Origin: Plantibacter sp. Leaf314
Lineage (GTDB): Bacteria; Actinomycetota; Actinomycetes; Actinomycetales; Microbacteriaceae
Direction: 5' to 3'
Assembly: GCF_001423185.1 (NCBI RefSeq)
Contig: NZ_LMOB01000001.1
Location: forward strand, 2,277,889 to 2,341,888
Length of the DNA stretch: 64,000 bases
This document shows, piece by piece, positions 57,348-64,000 of the stretch (position 1 is the stretch's first letter; each line of letters begins with the position of its first letter). The position numbers were made by a program, and so were the translations under genes. The notes below the pieces were generated by a model. The model was not told the origin of the DNA and did not search any database. It worked only from the letters and a program-made list of their open reading frames with translations.

Positions 57348-59078
57348 TCACGCAGGAACGTGTTGCTGCGCGCACAGTGTCCGGTAGAGCTCGCATCTGT
57401 CGAGGAGCTCGTCGTGCGCACCGACGTCCACGATGCGTCCGTGCTCCATCACGATGATCTTGTCGAAGTCGCGTACCTCCGCCAGACGGTGGGAGGCCAT
57501 AACGATGGTCTTCGCCTGCGCACGCTCCCGCAGCAGCGACGACAGTCCCTCGGCGGAGATGGCGTCAAGGCTCGATGTCGGTTCGTCAAGGAGCAGCATC
57601 TCTCGGTCAGAGAGCAACGCTCGGGCAACACCCAGCCGCTGCCGCTCACCTCCTGAGAGGTTGCTACCTGACACTGCGACAGGTCGGTCGAGGACGTCCC
57701 CGCCTATGCTGGCGAACAGCCCCACGTCCGCCAACGTCTGCAAGAGCGCACTGTCCGGAAGGCCGCGGTGCTCGATGTCGAGATTGTCTCGAACGGTTCC
57801 TCCCACCGGCGGCGAGTTCTGCGGCACCCACGCCATACGAGCTCGGTAATCGCCGAGCGGGCCGTCGTGAGCCGGCACTCCACGCATCCGTATGGTGCCA
57901 CTGCTGGGTTCGTAGAACCTCTCGAGAAGAGCGAACACGGTGGACTTCCCAGACCCGGACGGGCCCACGAGAGCGACGTGCTCACCGTCACGGATCGTGA
58001 TATCGAGCGGCCCGATGCGAGTCGCCGACGCGGCCGACGCTTGCGGATACTCGAAAGTAACGCTCTCGAGTTCGACGAGCACCTCACCCGCGCACCCCAA
58101 GTCGGTATGAGTGCCATCCGACAGGAGATCGCTCTCTTGCGGCGCGGAGACAATTTCATCGACGCGGTCTATCGCCGCAAGTCCCGTCTGAATGCTCACG
58201 AACGTCGAACCGACCTGAGAGACCGGTCCGACCATCATCATGAGGTACATCATGAACGCGATCAGCCCTCCGAGTGACAGGCTGCCCTCAGCGACTCGGA
58301 CGCCACCGAGAGCAAGCGTGACGATGAGGAGTGCTTGGGTGGCGAGGGTCATGACTGGTTGCATGTATGCACCCAACCGCGCCACCTTGATTGCGTTCGT
58401 CCTGACGTCACTAGCGTCGGCTGCGATGAGGGCAAGCTGCTGTCGGCCCACTCCGTAGGCTCGGATCAGCGGCAGCGCAGTCAGCGTGCGTTCGAAGCTG
58501 CCTGCGAGCGTCGCGGTCGCCGCCTGAGTTCTCCCGGACGCTGAGCGCACCAGTCGCCCCATGACGGTGGACAGCACCGTAGCAACAACGGTGATCACCA
58601 ACGACAGAGCGAACAGAATCGGGTCGATGGTGGCCATGAGGACGGCCGCGACCGCGAAGGTGACGACCGCAGCAAGGAGTTTGAATACACCCGTCGTCAG
58701 AACGGATGATGAGGCGGCGGTGTCGGAGATCATTCGAGAGAGGAACTCACCCTGTGGCACCCGTTGCACGCGACTCATTGGCAACGACACGATGCGTGCC
58801 GACACGCGTGTCCGCAGTTCGAGGATGAGGTCGTGTGCGGTGCGAGCAAGAGCATACGACTCCACCCCGGCGAGTAACGCCTGAGCGACAACCACCGTAG
58901 TCAGGATCAGCACCGCAGGAAGCGGCACTGACCCGGAAGTCAAGGCATCGAACAGCTGTTGCAGCAGCAACGGTTGGGCAAGCCCCAGCCCCGCCCCCAC
59001 GAGGGACAGCGCCACCAGTCCTCCGAGTCGCCAACGATGGCGTCGGATGAAGTCTCGGAGGGTGTTGCTTCGGATCAT
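57348..59078 (-). CDS. ABCB-type exporter of the lanthipeptide cluster
   Basis: A 576-residue half-transporter. Six helices in about 1-310, opening LGGLVALSLVGAGLGLAQPL, are followed by the ATPase with Walker A VGPSGSGKSTVFALLE, Q-loop WVPQNSPPVGG, signature NLSGGERQRLGVARALL and Walker B MLLLDEPTSSLDA. There is no N-terminal C39 peptidase, so it does not cut the leader. It resembles the RamA/RamB and LanT exporters of SapB-like clusters. The ATG overlaps the FtsX-type gene stop by 4 bases. A long in-frame extension upstream is not used. Lower GC than genes to its left. Confidence 0.9.
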   Translation of the reverse strand: MIRSNTLRDFIRRHRWRLGGLVALSLVGAGLGLAQPLLLQQLFDALTSGSVPLPAVLILTTVVVAQALLAGVESYALARTAHDLILELRTRVSARIVSLPMSRVQRVPQGEFLSRMISDTAASSSVLTTGVFKLLAAVVTFAVAAVLMATIDPILFALSLVITVVATVLSTVMGRLVRSASGRTQAATATLAGSFERTLTALPLIRAYGVGRQQLALIAADASDVRTNAIKVARLGAYMQPVMTLATQALLIVTLALGGVRVAEGSLSLGGLIAFMMYLMMMVGPVSQVGSTFVSIQTGLAAIDRVDEIVSAPQESDLLSDGTHTDLGCAGEVLVELESVTFEYPQASAASATRIGPLDITIRDGEHVALVGPSGSGKSTVFALLERFYEPSSGTIRMRGVPAHDGPLGDYRARMAWVPQNSPPVGGTVRDNLDIEHRGLPDSALLQTLADVGLFASIGGDVLDRPVAVSGSNLSGGERQRLGVARALLSDREMLLLDEPTSSLDAISAEGLSSLLRERAQAKTIVMASHRLAEVRDFDKIIVMEHGRIVDVGAHDELLDRCELYRTLCAQQHVPA

Positions 59079-61003
59079 CGCTGGGTGTTCCTGGTCGCGA
59101 CCACTGCGGCGATGAAAACTGTGGCGGTGAAAAGGAGACCCATACCCACAAACGTGAGAGCGATGTCGCCCCATGGAATGGCGCCGACAGCGGTGGCCAT
59201 CTTCGTCGGGTCTTGCGCGAGATATCGCCATGCAATGAAGGCGAACGCGCCGGCAAGCAGCACACCGCTGGACACGATGAGAACGAGGGCTTCTGAGAAC
59301 AGTGTGCCTATCGTCCGAGCGCGGGATATCCCGAGCAGGCTCAGGAGTCGGAACTCGCCCCGGCGATTCATGACGGACGCGGTGAGGCCTTGGATCATGG
59401 CGACGATGGCGAGACCATAGATGGTGCCGAACAAGGCGATGTTTCCGGTGGCGGCGTTGCTCTGGCGAAGCTCGACACGCGTCTGGATGAACTCGTCTTT
59501 CGTCATCGTCGGGGCGAGGTCGTCGACGCGCGCGGTGATGTCGGAGACGGCGGCGGAGTCCGCACTCACGAACACACGGATGTCCCACACCTCCGGGTCC
59601 AGGGTCTGCAGCATCTCCCAGTCGACGAGGAGTCCGGTGTAGATCCGGGAGGTGATGACGGCGGCGACGGTGAGGGTGGCCGTGGTTCCGCTCGGTGCCT
59701 CGACCGTGACGGTGTCTCCGACCGTGTCGCTCTCCCGTGTGGAGACGACGGCCGCGCCACCGGCGCTGTCGAAGTCGCCTGTTGTCACGTCCGTCTCGAA
59801 GACGTCCTGGTAAGCGTCGAGGTCTACGAAGTTGAAAACGGTGAGGAACGTGCCGTCCGCGCGCCCCTGCTCGATGAGCCGGGTAGTTGCTGCGGAACGT
59901 ACCACCGCGTTCACGCCCTGCATATTCCCGATGTCGCCGGTGACGGTGTCGGCATCCTTGACGGATGACGGCTCGACGATGAGGTCGGCATCCAGCTTGG
60001 AGTGATAGTCATCCTGCATGGTCGCCTGATCAGGCCCTGCACCGATGGCGAACCCGCCCATGACGCCCATCAGGATGAGCAGCGGGAGGACGTTGGATGC
60101 GAACCGTTGCGAGTCGCGGGAGGCGCGCTGCGCGACGAGGACACCCGAGCCGCCGATCAGGGGCCTGAGGAGCCAGCCCAACGCTCGCGCGACCACCGGA
60201 ACGAGTACTGGTGCAAGTGCGCCGAGGGGGAAGATGATCAGCAGCGGGACGATGATTGAGGCGACAGGGTTCTCACTCCCGGTATCCGGCATGAAAATGA
60301 GGAATGCGGCGAGCCCGACGACGGACGCGGCTGCGATGACGATACGAATCGCGCTCATCTTCTTGCCCTGTGTGCCCGTCGCAGACGCCTCGAGAGCGGC
60401 GAGAACATCGTTGGTCTGCTTGGAGCGAAGGCTCAACCACGCGGCGACCATAGAGCAGAGGATCATCCCTCCCGCGACCAGGCCCAGAGTGAGGACCGGG
60501 AAACCGAAATCCACCCGCAGGGTCTTCCCGAACACGCCCACGGCCTGGAGCAGGAGATAGAAGGGGTGGGCGAGCAGCCCACCGATGAGGACACTCGGGA
60601 TCACGACCAACGTGGCGAAGACGAACGCCTCACCGGTGACCAACACGCGAACGCGCAACACACTCGCTCCTGCGAGACGAAGCTGGCCGAGTTCTCTGCG
60701 CCGCAAGGCGAGCATGTTCCGGAAGCCCAAGTAGACCAGCACGAGTGCGATCACCACCGTGGTGAAGCACATGACCTGCAGGATGCCCTGCGATGCGCTG
60801 ACAGCGGCCCGAACGACGCGGGCATCGAACTCCGACATCGAATCGATCCGGACCGCCTGCCCGCTTGCAAGGCCGGTGAACAAGACCATCTCCGCAGTCG
60901 CGACGACCGTGGCGATACTGAGAAGGATGGCGACTCCGACATACGCCGCTCGATGGCGACGCACGAACGCCAGAGACACGGGCAGCTGCTGAGCCATAGT
61001 CAT
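59075..61003 (-). CDS. FtsX-type ABC permease
   Basis: A 642-residue membrane protein with two FtsX-type modules. The first ends in the coupling sequence LALRRRELGQLRLAGASVLR (about 90-110), the second in SVMNRRGEFRLLSLLGISRAR. Several helices follow each. A large outside domain (about 315-475, TMQDDYHSKLDADLIVEPSS) sits between. Such permeases with a MacB/LolD-type ATPase export or extract peptides and lipids, and in lanthipeptide clusters often give self-protection. Start overlaps the ATPase stop by ATGA. An in-frame ATG at codon 3 is the alternative. Confidence 0.88.
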   Translation of the reverse strand: MTMAQQLPVSLAFVRRHRAAYVGVAILLSIATVVATAEMVLFTGLASGQAVRIDSMSEFDARVVRAAVSASQGILQVMCFTTVVIALVLVYLGFRNMLALRRRELGQLRLAGASVLRVRVLVTGEAFVFATLVVIPSVLIGGLLAHPFYLLLQAVGVFGKTLRVDFGFPVLTLGLVAGGMILCSMVAAWLSLRSKQTNDVLAALEASATGTQGKKMSAIRIVIAAASVVGLAAFLIFMPDTGSENPVASIIVPLLIIFPLGALAPVLVPVVARALGWLLRPLIGGSGVLVAQRASRDSQRFASNVLPLLILMGVMGGFAIGAGPDQATMQDDYHSKLDADLIVEPSSVKDADTVTGDIGNMQGVNAVVRSAATTRLIEQGRADGTFLTVFNFVDLDAYQDVFETDVTTGDFDSAGGAAVVSTRESDTVGDTVTVEAPSGTTATLTVAAVITSRIYTGLLVDWEMLQTLDPEVWDIRVFVSADSAAVSDITARVDDLAPTMTKDEFIQTRVELRQSNAATGNIALFGTIYGLAIVAMIQGLTASVMNRRGEFRLLSLLGISRARTIGTLFSEALVLIVSSGVLLAGAFAFIAWRYLAQDPTKMATAVGAIPWGDIALTFVGMGLLFTATVFIAAVVATRNTQR

Positions 61004-61722
61004 CGCGCGGCGCTCTCCAGCCCCGTCATGCGAGAGCTGACGGCCTCCGCTGTCGGGGCGTCCATCGTGTCCACGAGTCGCCCGTCGACAAGGAACAGGA
61101 CCCGGTCGGCGTATGCAGCGATCTGGGGATCATGAGTGACCATGACAACAGCAGTGCCGACGTCCCGGAACCGACGAAGCTGGTCCATCACCAGGAAACC
61201 GCTCTTGCGGTCCAGCGCTCCCGTCGGTTCATCGGCGAAGATCACGCGCCTGGTCTGAGCGAGGGCGCGTGCGATGGCCACGCGTTGCTGCTGCCCACCG
61301 GAAAGCTCTGCCGGGTACGACTTGACCTTCTCCGAGAGCCCAACGTTGGCCAGGGCATTCACGGCCTGCTCACGCGGTATCGCCGGTCCCCCAAAGAGGG
61401 AGGGCAGTGTGACGTTCTGCAACGCTGTCAGAGCATCGATGAGATTGAAGCTCTGAAAAATGAAACCGAACTCGTCACGTCGGAGAAGATCGAGCTGACG
61501 TTGCTTCGCGGTGGTCAATTCCGTGGCGTCGAAGGCGACGGATCCCGCTGACGCGCGGATGAGACCGGCGAGGCAGTAGAGGAGGGTGGACTTCCCGGAG
61601 CCAGACGGGCCCATGATGGCGGTGAACGAACCAGGCTCGAATGCGCAGCTGACACCGTCAAGCGCGAGCGTCTCCACCCGCCCGTTCGAGAACGTGTGCC
61701 CGAGTCCGGCTGCTGTGAGCAT
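61000..61722 (-). CDS. ABC ATPase (MacB/LolD type) partner of FtsX permease
   Basis: A 240-residue ATPase. Walker A IMGPSGSGKSTLLYCLAGLI, Q-loop FIFQSFNLIDALTALQNV, signature LSGGQQQRVAIARALA, Walker B VIFADEPTGALDRKSG and H-loop VMVTHDPQIAAYADR are all intact. It drives the FtsX-type permease encoded next. ATG 61722 is chosen because AAAGGGCAGCAC precedes it. The in-frame extension to 61776 would run through the hairpin downstream of the precursor gene and does not look like the family. Confidence 0.93.
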   Translation of the reverse strand: MLTAAGLGHTFSNGRVETLALDGVSCAFEPGSFTAIMGPSGSGKSTLLYCLAGLIRASAGSVAFDATELTTAKQRQLDLLRRDEFGFIFQSFNLIDALTALQNVTLPSLFGGPAIPREQAVNALANVGLSEKVKSYPAELSGGQQQRVAIARALAQTRRVIFADEPTGALDRKSGFLVMDQLRRFRDVGTAVVMVTHDPQIAAYADRVLFLVDGRLVDTMDAPTAEAVSSRMTGLESAAR

Positions 61723-61748
61723 GTGCTGCCCTTTCGTAGAAGAAGGGT

Positions 61749-61772
61749 GGGACGCGCGTCGCCGCGCGCCCC
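61749..61772 (-). terminator. Hairpin between precursor gene and ABC genes
   Basis: GGGACGCGCG (61749-61758), loop TCGC and CGCGCGCCCC (61763-61772) form a 10-bp stem with one mismatch, 14 bases after the precursor stop codon in transcription direction and 27 before the ATPase start. No T-run follows. Such hairpins after RiPP precursor genes often act as partial terminators or RNA stabilisers, giving more precursor than downstream message. That role is inferred here. Confidence 0.6.
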
Positions 61773-61785
61773 ACACGTCCGTGTA

Positions 61786-61917
61786 TCAGTTCGGTCCGCA
61801 GGAGATGCTGATACCGCTGTTGTCGCCGTCACACCACATGCTGATGCCGGATCCGAAGACACCGACCTCAGGCCCGGACTCGTTCGACAGGCCCTGCAAA
61901 GAAAGCAATGCGCTCAT
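61786..61917 (-). CDS. lanA: Class III lanthipeptide precursor peptide
   Basis: A 43-residue peptide. The leader holds LLSLQGL (residues 4-10), the class III recognition motif (compare LxDLQ in RamS and AmfS). The core has two identical-pattern ring motifs, SGISMWC (23-29) and SGISISC (34-40), fitting Ser-xx-Ser-xx-Cys for labionin or lanthionine formation, and ends CGPN. A near-perfect ribosome binding site AAGGAGGTGA lies 5 bases before the ATG. The gene starts inside the last 50 bases of lanKC and precedes two ABC systems. The leader/core border is probably between residues 15 and 22. No peptidase gene is visible. Confidence 0.9.
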   Translation of the reverse strand: MSALLSLQGLSNESGPEVGVFGSGISMWCDGDNSGISISCGPN

Positions 61918-64000
61918 TGTGTTCACCTCCTTCCATGTCATCGTCAAGTGGTCTGGGAAGAGTCACCGGGAACCAGTCGTCCGGGTTCTCTTCGAATAAG
62001 GCGAGGAGCGCGCCGACGTAGCCGGCAGCTCCCGTGGAGTAGTCCGCGGAGAGGTGGTATCCGTTGTCTCCGAGCATCACCAGCGCGTCAGGGTCGCTCC
62101 CACGGAAGAGGAAGTTCTCGGCGGTGAAGGACATCAACCGGACCCGTTCGCTGCCCCCATAAGAGAGCGGAGCGGACAGGAGCGCGCAGGCGATGCCAGC
62201 AGTCCCCCGAAACAGGCCGCCGTTCATGCTGATGATGCCGTCGACCGTCTGAGCGAGTCGTGCGATCTCGTCCCGGTAGTGGGTCGGCGCGCACTGTGCG
62301 AGAGCGAACGCGATCCCCGCGGCACCCTCCGACAGGTAGCCGTAGGAGACACGCGAGTAGTCCACTCGAAGGGTCCCGTTGTCCGCTTCGGTGAGCTGCT
62401 GCAGCTCGCGCTGGAAGCAGAGGTGCATCAGGTGATCCCAGGAGGCGTCCCCGGTGACTTCCGCGAGCTGGCGGCAGACCATTCCGACACCCGACCACCC
62501 GTCGAACAACCCGATGGTGTTACCGGTTTCCGAGTGAGGGCTACGGAGGTCCCCTCCGCCTGTGACACGGGCGGCGAGCAACGAGGCGTATCGGTCGCGC
62601 ATGTCGCGAGCGGAGTCCGTGTCCGCGAAGGCAGCATCGCACAGAGCGAGGATCGTGCCTGCCAAGCCACTCCGCACGGATAAGTCAAGTCCGGGGTCGG
62701 CGCTTACCTCTCCAGCCGCGAGGATCACTTCGGCACTTGCAGTGTCGCCGAGCTGGGCGAGTGCGGCCGCGATGCCCACGGTTCCGCGGAGGAGACCGTG
62801 AAACGGAATGTCGTCCACTTCTCGAAGGCGCGCGCTCAACCATCTGCGGTCCTGCGTGACGTCGCGGCCGGCTCTTGCGAGCATGAGGATCACGCCTGCG
62901 GCTCCCGTCTCGATGTTCAGCAAGGCGCTGGCTCCGTCTGCGAACTGTGTCGCGTCCCCGGGGAATCGGCGGGGTCCGTCACGTCGGGTTCCTTCGATGC
63001 CGTTACACACCTGCTCCAAGACTTGTCTACCTGGAGTGAGAGCAAGGCCTGTGGCGTGGCGGTACGGGTGCGACGTTGCCATCGCGTCCAGGGGCACAGC
63101 GTCGACCAAGGTGTTGACGACGTCCGCGACGTCTTCCGGGAATTGCTCCGCAACCTTCTGTGCCCGGTAGGTCAGCACGGACGGGTCGAACGCCCCGGCC
63201 AGCGACGGCCAGAACAAGTGCAGGACAACGGCAGCGAGCGCGTACCTGTCGCGGTCACGGTTCGAAGTCTGCGCGTGGGGTATGAAGCCCGGGGTGCCGA
63301 TACTGCCGACCGCCGAGGCATCCATCTCACGGGCGGCTTCGAGGTCGATGAGTCGGACACGGTCGCCGTCGACCAGGATGTTCTTCGGCTGCAGGTCGAG
63401 AATGCTCCAGCCTGCATCATGAATCTGATCGACCGCGGTGATCACCTGCCGGGCGAGTGGCAGAGCTCGTGCAGCGTAGTCGGCGAGGACAGTCTCCTCC
63501 GTGCTGAACGGATAGTTGCTGGCTGCCCAGGACTGGAGCGTGAGCCCGGGAATGTACTCCTCGACGAGAAACTCATGGTCGCCGATAACCCGGTACTCGA
63601 TGGCATTGACGACGGCACCCACGCTGGCGAGATGCTTCAGAGCCCGGTGTTCACTCCGCAGCCGCAAGGTCGCGTCGGCGGAGTCCGAGCTGTACGCCGA
63701 CCATCGCCGCGCCTCCTTCAAGACCACCTGACTCGATCCGGCGTCAGCAAGGTACACACCGCCGGCATTGCTGAAATGCAAGCTGGAGCGCACGACGTAC
63801 GGATGCAGAAGTTCTTCCAGCACCCCCGGCGTCGGACTGAGTCGCTCTTCGACAAGTTCACGGATCAGGGCCGGGGGATCAACGAAGCTCGGCAGCGTGA
63901 AGACGGCGGCGCGACTGTCGTGAACTTTCTCTCCGTCTGGGCTCTGAATGGCGTAGCCCGCCGAACCGTCCGCATGCTCGAAGCGGTCCAGGAAGAAGGC
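61868..64000 (-). CDS. lanKC: Class III lanthionine synthetase LanKC (N-terminus beyond edge)
   Basis: The frame is open to the right edge, giving about 710 C-terminal residues. The first 60 (DRFEHADGSAGYAIQSPDGE onward) are the end of the lyase domain. The kinase follows (about 63800-63150): VVLKEAR with the ATP Lys, IHDAGWSILDLQPKNILVDG as catalytic loop, LIDLEAA as metal-binding Asp. The cyclase domain (about 62950-61870) has LanC-like Gly-rich repeats (GLLRGTVGIAAAL, FDGWSGVGMVCRQL, SEGAAGIAFALA) but neither the WCxG nor the CHG zinc motif. This marks class III rather than class IV. It phosphorylates and eliminates Ser/Thr, then closes rings in the LanA peptide. Confidence 0.93.
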   Translation of the reverse strand, partial: AFFLDRFEHADGSAGYAIQSPDGEKVHDSRAAVFTLPSFVDPPALIRELVEERLSPTPGVLEELLHPYVVRSSLHFSNAGGVYLADAGSSQVVLKEARRWSAYSSDSADATLRLRSEHRALKHLASVGAVVNAIEYRVIGDHEFLVEEYIPGLTLQSWAASNYPFSTEETVLADYAARALPLARQVITAVDQIHDAGWSILDLQPKNILVDGDRVRLIDLEAAREMDASAVGSIGTPGFIPHAQTSNRDRDRYALAAVVLHLFWPSLAGAFDPSVLTYRAQKVAEQFPEDVADVVNTLVDAVPLDAMATSHPYRHATGLALTPGRQVLEQVCNGIEGTRRDGPRRFPGDATQFADGASALLNIETGAAGVILMLARAGRDVTQDRRWLSARLREVDDIPFHGLLRGTVGIAAALAQLGDTASAEVILAAGEVSADPGLDLSVRSGLAGTILALCDAAFADTDSARDMRDRYASLLAARVTGGGDLRSPHSETGNTIGLFDGWSGVGMVCRQLAEVTGDASWDHLMHLCFQRELQQLTEADNGTLRVDYSRVSYGYLSEGAAGIAFALAQCAPTHYRDEIARLAQTVDGIISMNGGLFRGTAGIACALLSAPLSYGGSERVRLMSFTAENFLFRGSDPDALVMLGDNGYHLSADYSTGAAGYVGALLALFEENPDDWFPVTLPRPLDDDMEGGEHNERIAFFAGPVERVRA
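61923..61932 (-). promoter_or_regulatory. Ribosome binding site of lanA inside lanKC
   Basis: AAGGAGGTGA, complementary to nearly the whole anti-SD region, lies 5 bases before the lanA ATG and entirely within lanKC coding sequence. Its strength suggests high translation of the precursor and may depend on ribosomes finishing lanKC nearby. Confidence 0.8.

Follow-up and report, generated by a model that had tools for sequence, protein, structure and literature searches.

On its minus strand, positions 61917–61786 of the window (the whole 64,000-nucleotide stretch of Plantibacter sp. Leaf314 DNA that was analysed) almost certainly constitute lanA, the gene for the precursor of an uncharacterised class III lanthipeptide. 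The class III lanthipeptide type is already known, and this precursor is a further, new representative with an unexplained evolutionary feature, which lies in its silent sites. The lanA gene, its neighbours, its conservation and the catalytic kinase and lyase residues of the adjacent synthetase LanKC are directly established.

The lanA gene and its biosynthetic cluster

The lanA reading frame (61786–61917, minus strand) encodes 43 amino acids followed by a stop codon, with the translation MSALLSLQGLSNESGPEVGVFGSGISMWCDGDNSGISISCGPN, an LLSLQ leader and the predicted core SGISMWCDGDNSGISISCGPN; the plus strand of the same positions holds an unrelated frame. The ribosome binding site AAGGAGGTGA (61923–61932, minus strand) is located within the lanKC reading frame, 5 nt ahead of the ATG at 61917. 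In-frame starts are also present upstream of this ATG, and since they sit before the ribosome binding site, 61917 is likely to be the start of lanA. The initial annotation had proposed a 43-residue class III precursor with a strong ribosome binding site, lanKC upstream and ABC genes downstream, and all of this was borne out by the minus-strand frame, the leader motif, the ribosome binding site, the position next to lanKC and three ABC-transporter genes, and the conservation in five clusters. It had also named, as an observation that would speak against the gene, close relatives lacking this frame and carrying another precursor. All five cluster copies, the window's included, carry the frame, and a different precursor in close relatives was rejected because none was seen in these five copies.

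The 3' part of lanKC, the gene for an intact class III lanthionine synthetase of 874 aa, occupies 61868–64000 (minus strand) and overlaps lanA by 50 nt, the gene extending past the window (L002:6868-9492). Downstream of lanA, likewise on the minus strand, are an ABC ATPase of the MacB/LolD type (61000–61722, 240 aa), an FtsX-type ABC permease with two FtsX stretches (59075–61003, 642 aa) and an ABC exporter with fused membrane and ATPase domains (57348–59078, 576 aa), among whose Pfam matches a peptidase domain is absent. Beyond the window, genes for a HisKA_3 histidine kinase and a LuxR-type response regulator lie upstream of lanKC in divergent orientation. The cluster shares one continuous 9.4-kb piece of DNA homology, 77.3% identical, with M. 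azadirachtae DSM 23848 (L021), which starts at the regulator gene, ends with the exporter gene and is taken here as the extent of the cluster (9.3 kb in Plantibacter). The GC content of the cluster is 63.9%, lower than in window positions 1–57000 (69.7%) and beyond the cluster (68.0%); AT3 of lanKC is 23.8%, compared with 6.0–10.6% in three flanking genes, so that the cluster was probably acquired. An overlap of lanKC and lanA of 32–50 nt, which places the lanA start region within lanKC, was observed in 16 loci, namely those of the window family (L022-L024, L037, L038) and 11 further ones with overlaps of 32–47 nt (L026, L027, L035, L036, L045, L052-L055, L059, L064).

Among the 470 window ORFs of 30–80 aa, 43 contain one SxxSx(2-5)C motif and seven contain two, and lanA alone combines the twin motif with an [LIVMF]xLQ motif in the first half of the ORF. 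Simulation of 100 first-order Markov sequences as long as the window gave means of 34.01 ORFs with one motif, 0.71 with the twin motif and 0 with the twin motif and an LQ leader. This control is weak for the twin motif (seven observed versus 0.71 expected), so the motif alone is little proof, and the case for lanA rests on the leader motif, the ribosome binding site, the position and the conservation in five clusters. The expectation that such a gene is easily missed was also confirmed, as lanA stays under the curated cut-offs of all four matching NCBIfam/Pfam class III precursor models, with 16.4 of 30 and 13.4 of 22 bits and, for the SapB/AmfS family, to which it does not belong by score, 12.7 of 25 bits (NF033212) and 15.9 of 24.3 bits (Pfam RamS, PF19402). 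According to the available part of one survey, approximately 55% of class III precursors were unannotated in the database (PMC7268733), so a missed gene of the lanA type is usual. A chance ORF, with the substrate of LanKC encoded by another gene, could be suggested by these low scores and by the six other window ORFs that have twin motifs without the leader motif. It is nevertheless extremely improbable, since five clusters keep lanA with the LLSLQ leader, a strong ribosome binding site and a fixed position, and a twin-motif ORF with an LQ leader appeared in none of the 100 simulated sequences; a chance ORF was rejected on this conservation and the Markov control.

The class III synthetase LanKC

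LanKC passed the NCBIfam class III model NF038151 (651.2 bits, cut-off 575) and failed the class IV model (346.2 bits, cut-off 650). Its best PDB matches were 9wop and 9wj0, kinase-domain proteins by name, followed by the class III LanKC chains 8sap, 8sam and 8sao, which we take to be ThurKC. A total of 59 LanKC loci (L022-L080, copies included) were aligned, and ThurKC residues were mapped through the PDB-match alignment. The eleven lyase and kinase residues described as important in the available text on ThurKC (K65, H67, K94, K117, D152, R163, R191, K257, E279, D382 and E384; PMC10604976) are all present in the window LanKC (P0002), and each is kept in 56 to 59 of the 59 loci. ThurKC F383 corresponds to Leu384, in a column with L in 30 and F in 26 of the 59 loci. 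In the cyclase domain, ThurKC S608, R610, D667, S726 and F770 are the same in the window LanKC (the checked set leaves out R519 and D657), and S721, F761 and R762 stand at the positions of ThurKC S726, F770 and D771, so that the cyclase lacks the Zn ligands found in other LanC enzymes. Asp771, which the same source proposes as the general base of the ThurKC cyclase (PMC10604976), is Arg762 in the window LanKC, at a variable column with Asp in 4 of the 59 loci. Among the marks of a class III cluster, the locus has a LanKC with lyase, kinase and cyclase parts (NF038151, PDB matches and residues) and, beside lanKC, a small precursor with an LxLQ leader and an SxxSx(2-5)C core. The LLSLQ of lanA resembles the class III leader motifs LxLQ (PMC7268733) and LELQL (PMC10604976), as given in the available parts of these sources.

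Ring motifs of the core peptide

The lanA core contains the SGISxxC pattern twice (SGISMWC and SGISISC), with two residues between the second Ser and Cys in each motif. This spacing had been put forward as a novelty, a claim that did not hold, as it falls inside the published class III motif SxxSx(2-5)C quoted in the available text of two sources (PMC11251773; PMC8960859). Candidate precursors were taken as same-strand ORFs just downstream of lanKC in the 59 loci, of which 48 had at least one and 11 had none; those of L039 and L041 look spurious (no LQ leader), which leaves 46 plausible loci, copies included. Two SxxSxxxC rings are found in 20 of the 46 loci. The window family (L022, L024, L037, L038) has two SxxSxxC rings, as do precursors beside three unrelated lanKC genes, in L051 (STYSLTC, STHSLTC), L064 (SHVSSAC, SSFSSVC) and L067 (STMSLNC, STFSNAC), and one SxxSxxC ring is combined with a longer one in L045, L046, L048, L049, L050, L053, L057, L058, L062 and L070 (copies included). 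The short spacing is therefore neither unique nor outside the published motif, and twin short rings were rejected as a unique feature.

The two rings had also been expected to be alike, which is not necessarily the case. Both Ser residues of each ring are present in L022 (the window), L024, L037 and L038, and one Plantibacter strain (L019/L023) has Arg at residue 34, in place of the Ser that opens ring 2. Because this Ser is replaced, labionin cannot form in ring 2 of the S34R strain; only a simple lanthionine, most likely from Ser37, would be expected there, with three dehydrations of the core in place of four. For the 21-residue core predicted from the window, a monoisotopic mass of 2098.839 was calculated, falling to 2026.797 ([M+2H]2+ 1014.406) on loss of four waters.

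Distribution of the cluster

The cluster with its precursor was found in three of seven Plantibacter genomes and in two Microbacterium genomes, five copies with the window's. In a family sample of 398 genomes, a precursor search returned the same three Plantibacter genomes below E 1e-20 and 13 weak matches in other genera (E 0.007–0.1), which were regarded as chance. LanKC searches gave matches in 13 of 398 genomes of the family sample (E 1e-20), in 35 of 366 genomes of Microbacterium, the genus of L020 (E 1e-30), and in 14 of 396 genomes of the order sample (E 1e-60), with two candidates scored per genome in most genomes, so that second clusters may be missed. This cluster type is present in 2 of the 366 Microbacterium genomes (LanKC 92% and 76% identical), the other matches being 28–41% identical, and the LanKC of Plantibacter sp. 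VKM Ac-2880 is 99% identical to that of the window. In Microbacterium sp. MYb54 (L020), LanKC is 92% identical and the 9.4-kb DNA piece is 91.8% identical to the window cluster. This identity across genera, together with the low-GC composition of the cluster in Plantibacter, makes recent horizontal transfer likely. Plasmid copies were considered and rejected: the 78 plasmid records with a LanKC match all stay below 60% identity, with 31–34% for the 10 that were listed.

For M. azadirachtae DSM 23848, the available portion of a published account names a linaridin and no lantipeptide cluster (PMC7438953), so the cluster may have escaped notice there. Lanthipeptide reports for Plantibacter were not found in the open-licence literature, which is no proof of absence, and the titles and abstract beginnings among the matches listed from that literature describe neither this peptide nor a silent-site freeze of lanA. 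Three other loci of the window's genus (L026, L035 and L036, in G004, G005 and G001) belong to a second, different class III cluster with the precursor core SNWSWWACGENQPESSASLFACAGG, which the same LanKC search did not find in the window's genome. Several precursor candidates may also follow one lanKC gene, as in L027, with four different class III candidates in a row, and in L031, with two short single-ring candidates ending in SSVSYNCG and SSASWNCGG.

Conservation of the silent sites of lanA

Relative to M. azadirachtae (L021), the Nei–Gojobori dS values are 1.04 for lanKC, 1.29 for the ATPase gene, 0.90 for the permease gene and 1.15 for the exporter gene, whereas lanA, with 28.7 synonymous sites, shows 5 nonsynonymous differences and 0 synonymous ones. 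In 2144 sliding segments of 43 codons from the four other genes (minus the last 17 lanKC codons), every segment had at least 8.5 synonymous differences, and the binomial probability of the lanA result at the lanKC rate is approximately 2e-11, with sites treated as independent. The conserved block (61770–61929, minus strand, 160 nt) is identical to M. azadirachtae at 155 of 160 positions, with 5 mismatches; it begins inside the ribosome binding site and extends as far as the base of the 3' hairpin, whereas the rest of the cluster is approximately 77% identical. Against the closer L020 the contrast is weak, with 1 synonymous change in lanA and none in some of the lanKC segments.

lanA and lanKC were compared in 26 of the 46 loci (20 were left out, some as copies and others by choice), in pairs with a LanKC identity of at least 0.5. 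Synonymous depletion of lanA relative to the lanKC rate at P<0.05 was found in 18 of 25 pairs at LanKC identities of 0.65–0.93, with non-independent pairs and uncorrected P values; the 7 pairs without significant depletion include L046/L058, in which 14 of 28 silent sites differ. No significant depletion was seen in five pairs above 0.93, and below 0.65 it was significant in L046/L062 only. A clear peak of DNA identity over lanA appeared in five of nine pairs (L022/L038, L025/L040, L040/L042, L054/L063 and L047/L063), with further high-identity stretches downstream of lanA in L025/L040 and L040/L042; the profiles of L022/L037, L046/L048 and L026/L035 are ambiguous, and L046/L058 has no lanA peak. 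In other Microbacteriaceae, silent-site depletion is weaker and affects several lanA genes but not all of them; it is taken as a tendency with exceptions.

The hairpin (61747–61774, minus strand), with a 12-bp stem and a weak T tail, lies between lanA and the ATPase gene. It differs from its counterpart in L021 at 5 of 28 bases: two are in the loop, one turns a G-T pair of the stem into A-T, and two changes together turn G-C into A-T. The hairpin of L019 differs in the loop only, and that of L020 is identical. The fold of a 71-nt segment that includes the hairpin was better than that of every one of 200 shuffles, both in the window and in L021 (z -3.0 and -6.2). A consensus scan gave 3 terminator-like sites versus 2.9 in shuffles and 0 promoter-like sites versus 0.5 expected from shuffles; since the scan alone lends the hairpin no support, its support comes from folding and pairing. 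In view of the scan and the tail CCTTCTTCTA, a leaky terminator or stabiliser favouring lanA over the transporter genes appears likelier than a full stop.

There is an even chance that the frozen silent sites reflect recent homogenisation, in which a short lanA tract was exchanged between related clusters by homologous recombination, followed by changes to the peptide under relaxed or diversifying selection. The absence of synonymous among five nonsynonymous differences to M. azadirachtae is consistent with such an exchange, as are the 1 synonymous and 6 nonsynonymous differences in L023, L037 and L038 together, near the neutral site ratio of 29:100, and the mobile appearance of the cluster (GC, lanKC AT3 and cross-genus LanKC identity given above). 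Furthermore, L046/L058 indicates that lanA genes of such a kind can diverge. However, the edges of the tract coincide with a functional unit bounded by the ribosome binding site and the base of the 3' hairpin, and neither this nor the clear local lanA peak in five of nine pairs is expected from chance edges.

A constraint acting on the mRNA is a somewhat less likely explanation; it could lie in the structure of the start region, in an RNA element within lanA or in coupling of lanA translation to that of lanKC. Preferred codons offer no obvious explanation for the freeze and were not supported as its cause, as 9 of 43 lanA codons end in A/T, within the usual rate of the cluster (19–26% in its other genes), and all nine are kept in M. 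azadirachtae. The lanKC–lanA overlap in the 11 further loci and the hairpin pairing kept with one two-sided change also fit a constraint of this kind. Against it, lanA mRNA shows no folding advantage over shuffles (z +1.0 and +0.7, with z +1.3 for the start region), so that a folded RNA inside lanA received no support, and no Rfam family reaches the gathering score in 61500–64000. In addition, nonsynonymous changes are tolerated in the same stretch, and 7 of 25 comparable pairs are without significant depletion. It appears rather unlikely that lanA here and in several other Microbacteriaceae class III clusters owes nucleotide conservation beyond the protein to an RNA-level function, such as dosage coupling of synthetase and precursor, that freezes the silent sites; in this reading the function would reside in the precursor mRNA, with its ribosome binding site within lanKC and its end at the conserved hairpin. 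The exceptions and the near-neutral site ratio of the lanA changes lead us to lean slightly to recombination over RNA constraint.

Proposed biosynthesis and function

A possible pathway is proposed for the lanA peptide. LanKC would bind the LLSLQ helix of the leader and phosphorylate Ser residues of the two SGISxxC motifs, and elimination of phosphate could then give dehydroalanine. The metal-independent cyclase domain may subsequently close one thioether ring per motif, as lanthionine or, where both Ser residues are present, as labionin. We infer the chemistry, export and protection, the chemical steps following class III enzymology. The fused ABC exporter may secrete the peptide, and the leader would be removed by a host protease, as none was seen in the cluster. 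Two M1 peptidases are encoded elsewhere in the genome, and enzymes of this kind are widespread, being present in 8 of 14 control genomes; AplP belongs to the M1 peptidase family according to the available text of PMC10885120. The most likely role of the MacB-like ATPase and the FtsX permease would be protection of the producer, and expression may be tuned by the divergently encoded histidine kinase and LuxR-type regulator.

A secreted bioactive peptide with self-protection is weakly favoured as the most likely function, and with slightly less than even confidence the product may be regarded as such a peptide rather than a morphogen. Aerial hyphae are not known in Plantibacter or Microbacterium, which counts against a surfactant-like morphogen comparable to SapB. 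Resemblances to the SapB/AmfS family are the two-ring layout, the LxLQ-type leader and the nearby ABC gene and response regulator, but the lanA core reads less hydrophobic than that of durhapeptin, a peptide that loses its activity when hydrophobic residues are replaced (PMC13380574, available part). A morphogen role is considered improbable.

Relation to known class III systems

In the SapB gene cluster, lanKC, the precursor gene and the ABC genes lie together, as in the window cluster. The LxLQ-type leader, the two tandem ring motifs and the response regulator are also shared with SapB/AmfS (RamS) of Streptomyces, as far as the available text of PMC13380574 describes them. In contrast, both lanA rings are SxxSxxC instead of SxxSxxxC, the window cluster has one fused exporter plus a MacB/FtsX pair and a histidine kinase, and lanA scores below the family cut-offs. 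Other sampled precursors (L025, L043-L065; mostly MGYLLSLQ.../MGFILSLQ...) have an LLSLQ-type leader and likewise follow or overlap lanKC, and L051 and L064 share the twin SxxSxxC; however, their LanKC proteins are approximately 31–36% identical, and their cores are unlike SGISxWC.

In labyrinthopeptins, three residues precede Cys in each ring motif. Labyrinthopeptins and durhapeptin, both with twin labionin, share two Ser-xx-Ser-x(n)-Cys motifs with lanA, whereas durhapeptin has three residues before Cys, according to the available part of PMC13380574, and lanA has two. Unlike in labionin peptides, a labionin is excluded from ring 2 in the S34R strain. Microvionin, a lipolanthine of Microbacterium arborescens, is characterised by a Cys decarboxylase, fatty-acid/NRPS genes and a core that ends in Cys. 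It comes from the same bacterial family and is also made with a class III synthetase, but no Cys decarboxylase or fatty-acid/NRPS gene is among the named genes of the window cluster, and the window core ends in GPN.

The precursor adds a small, apparently uncharacterised family common to Plantibacter and Microbacterium that falls below the cut-offs of the searched models. Its natural S34R variant bears directly on whether ring 2 is a lanthionine or a labionin, and the frozen lanA silent sites, next to four genes in which such sites have strongly diverged, constitute a measurable anomaly.
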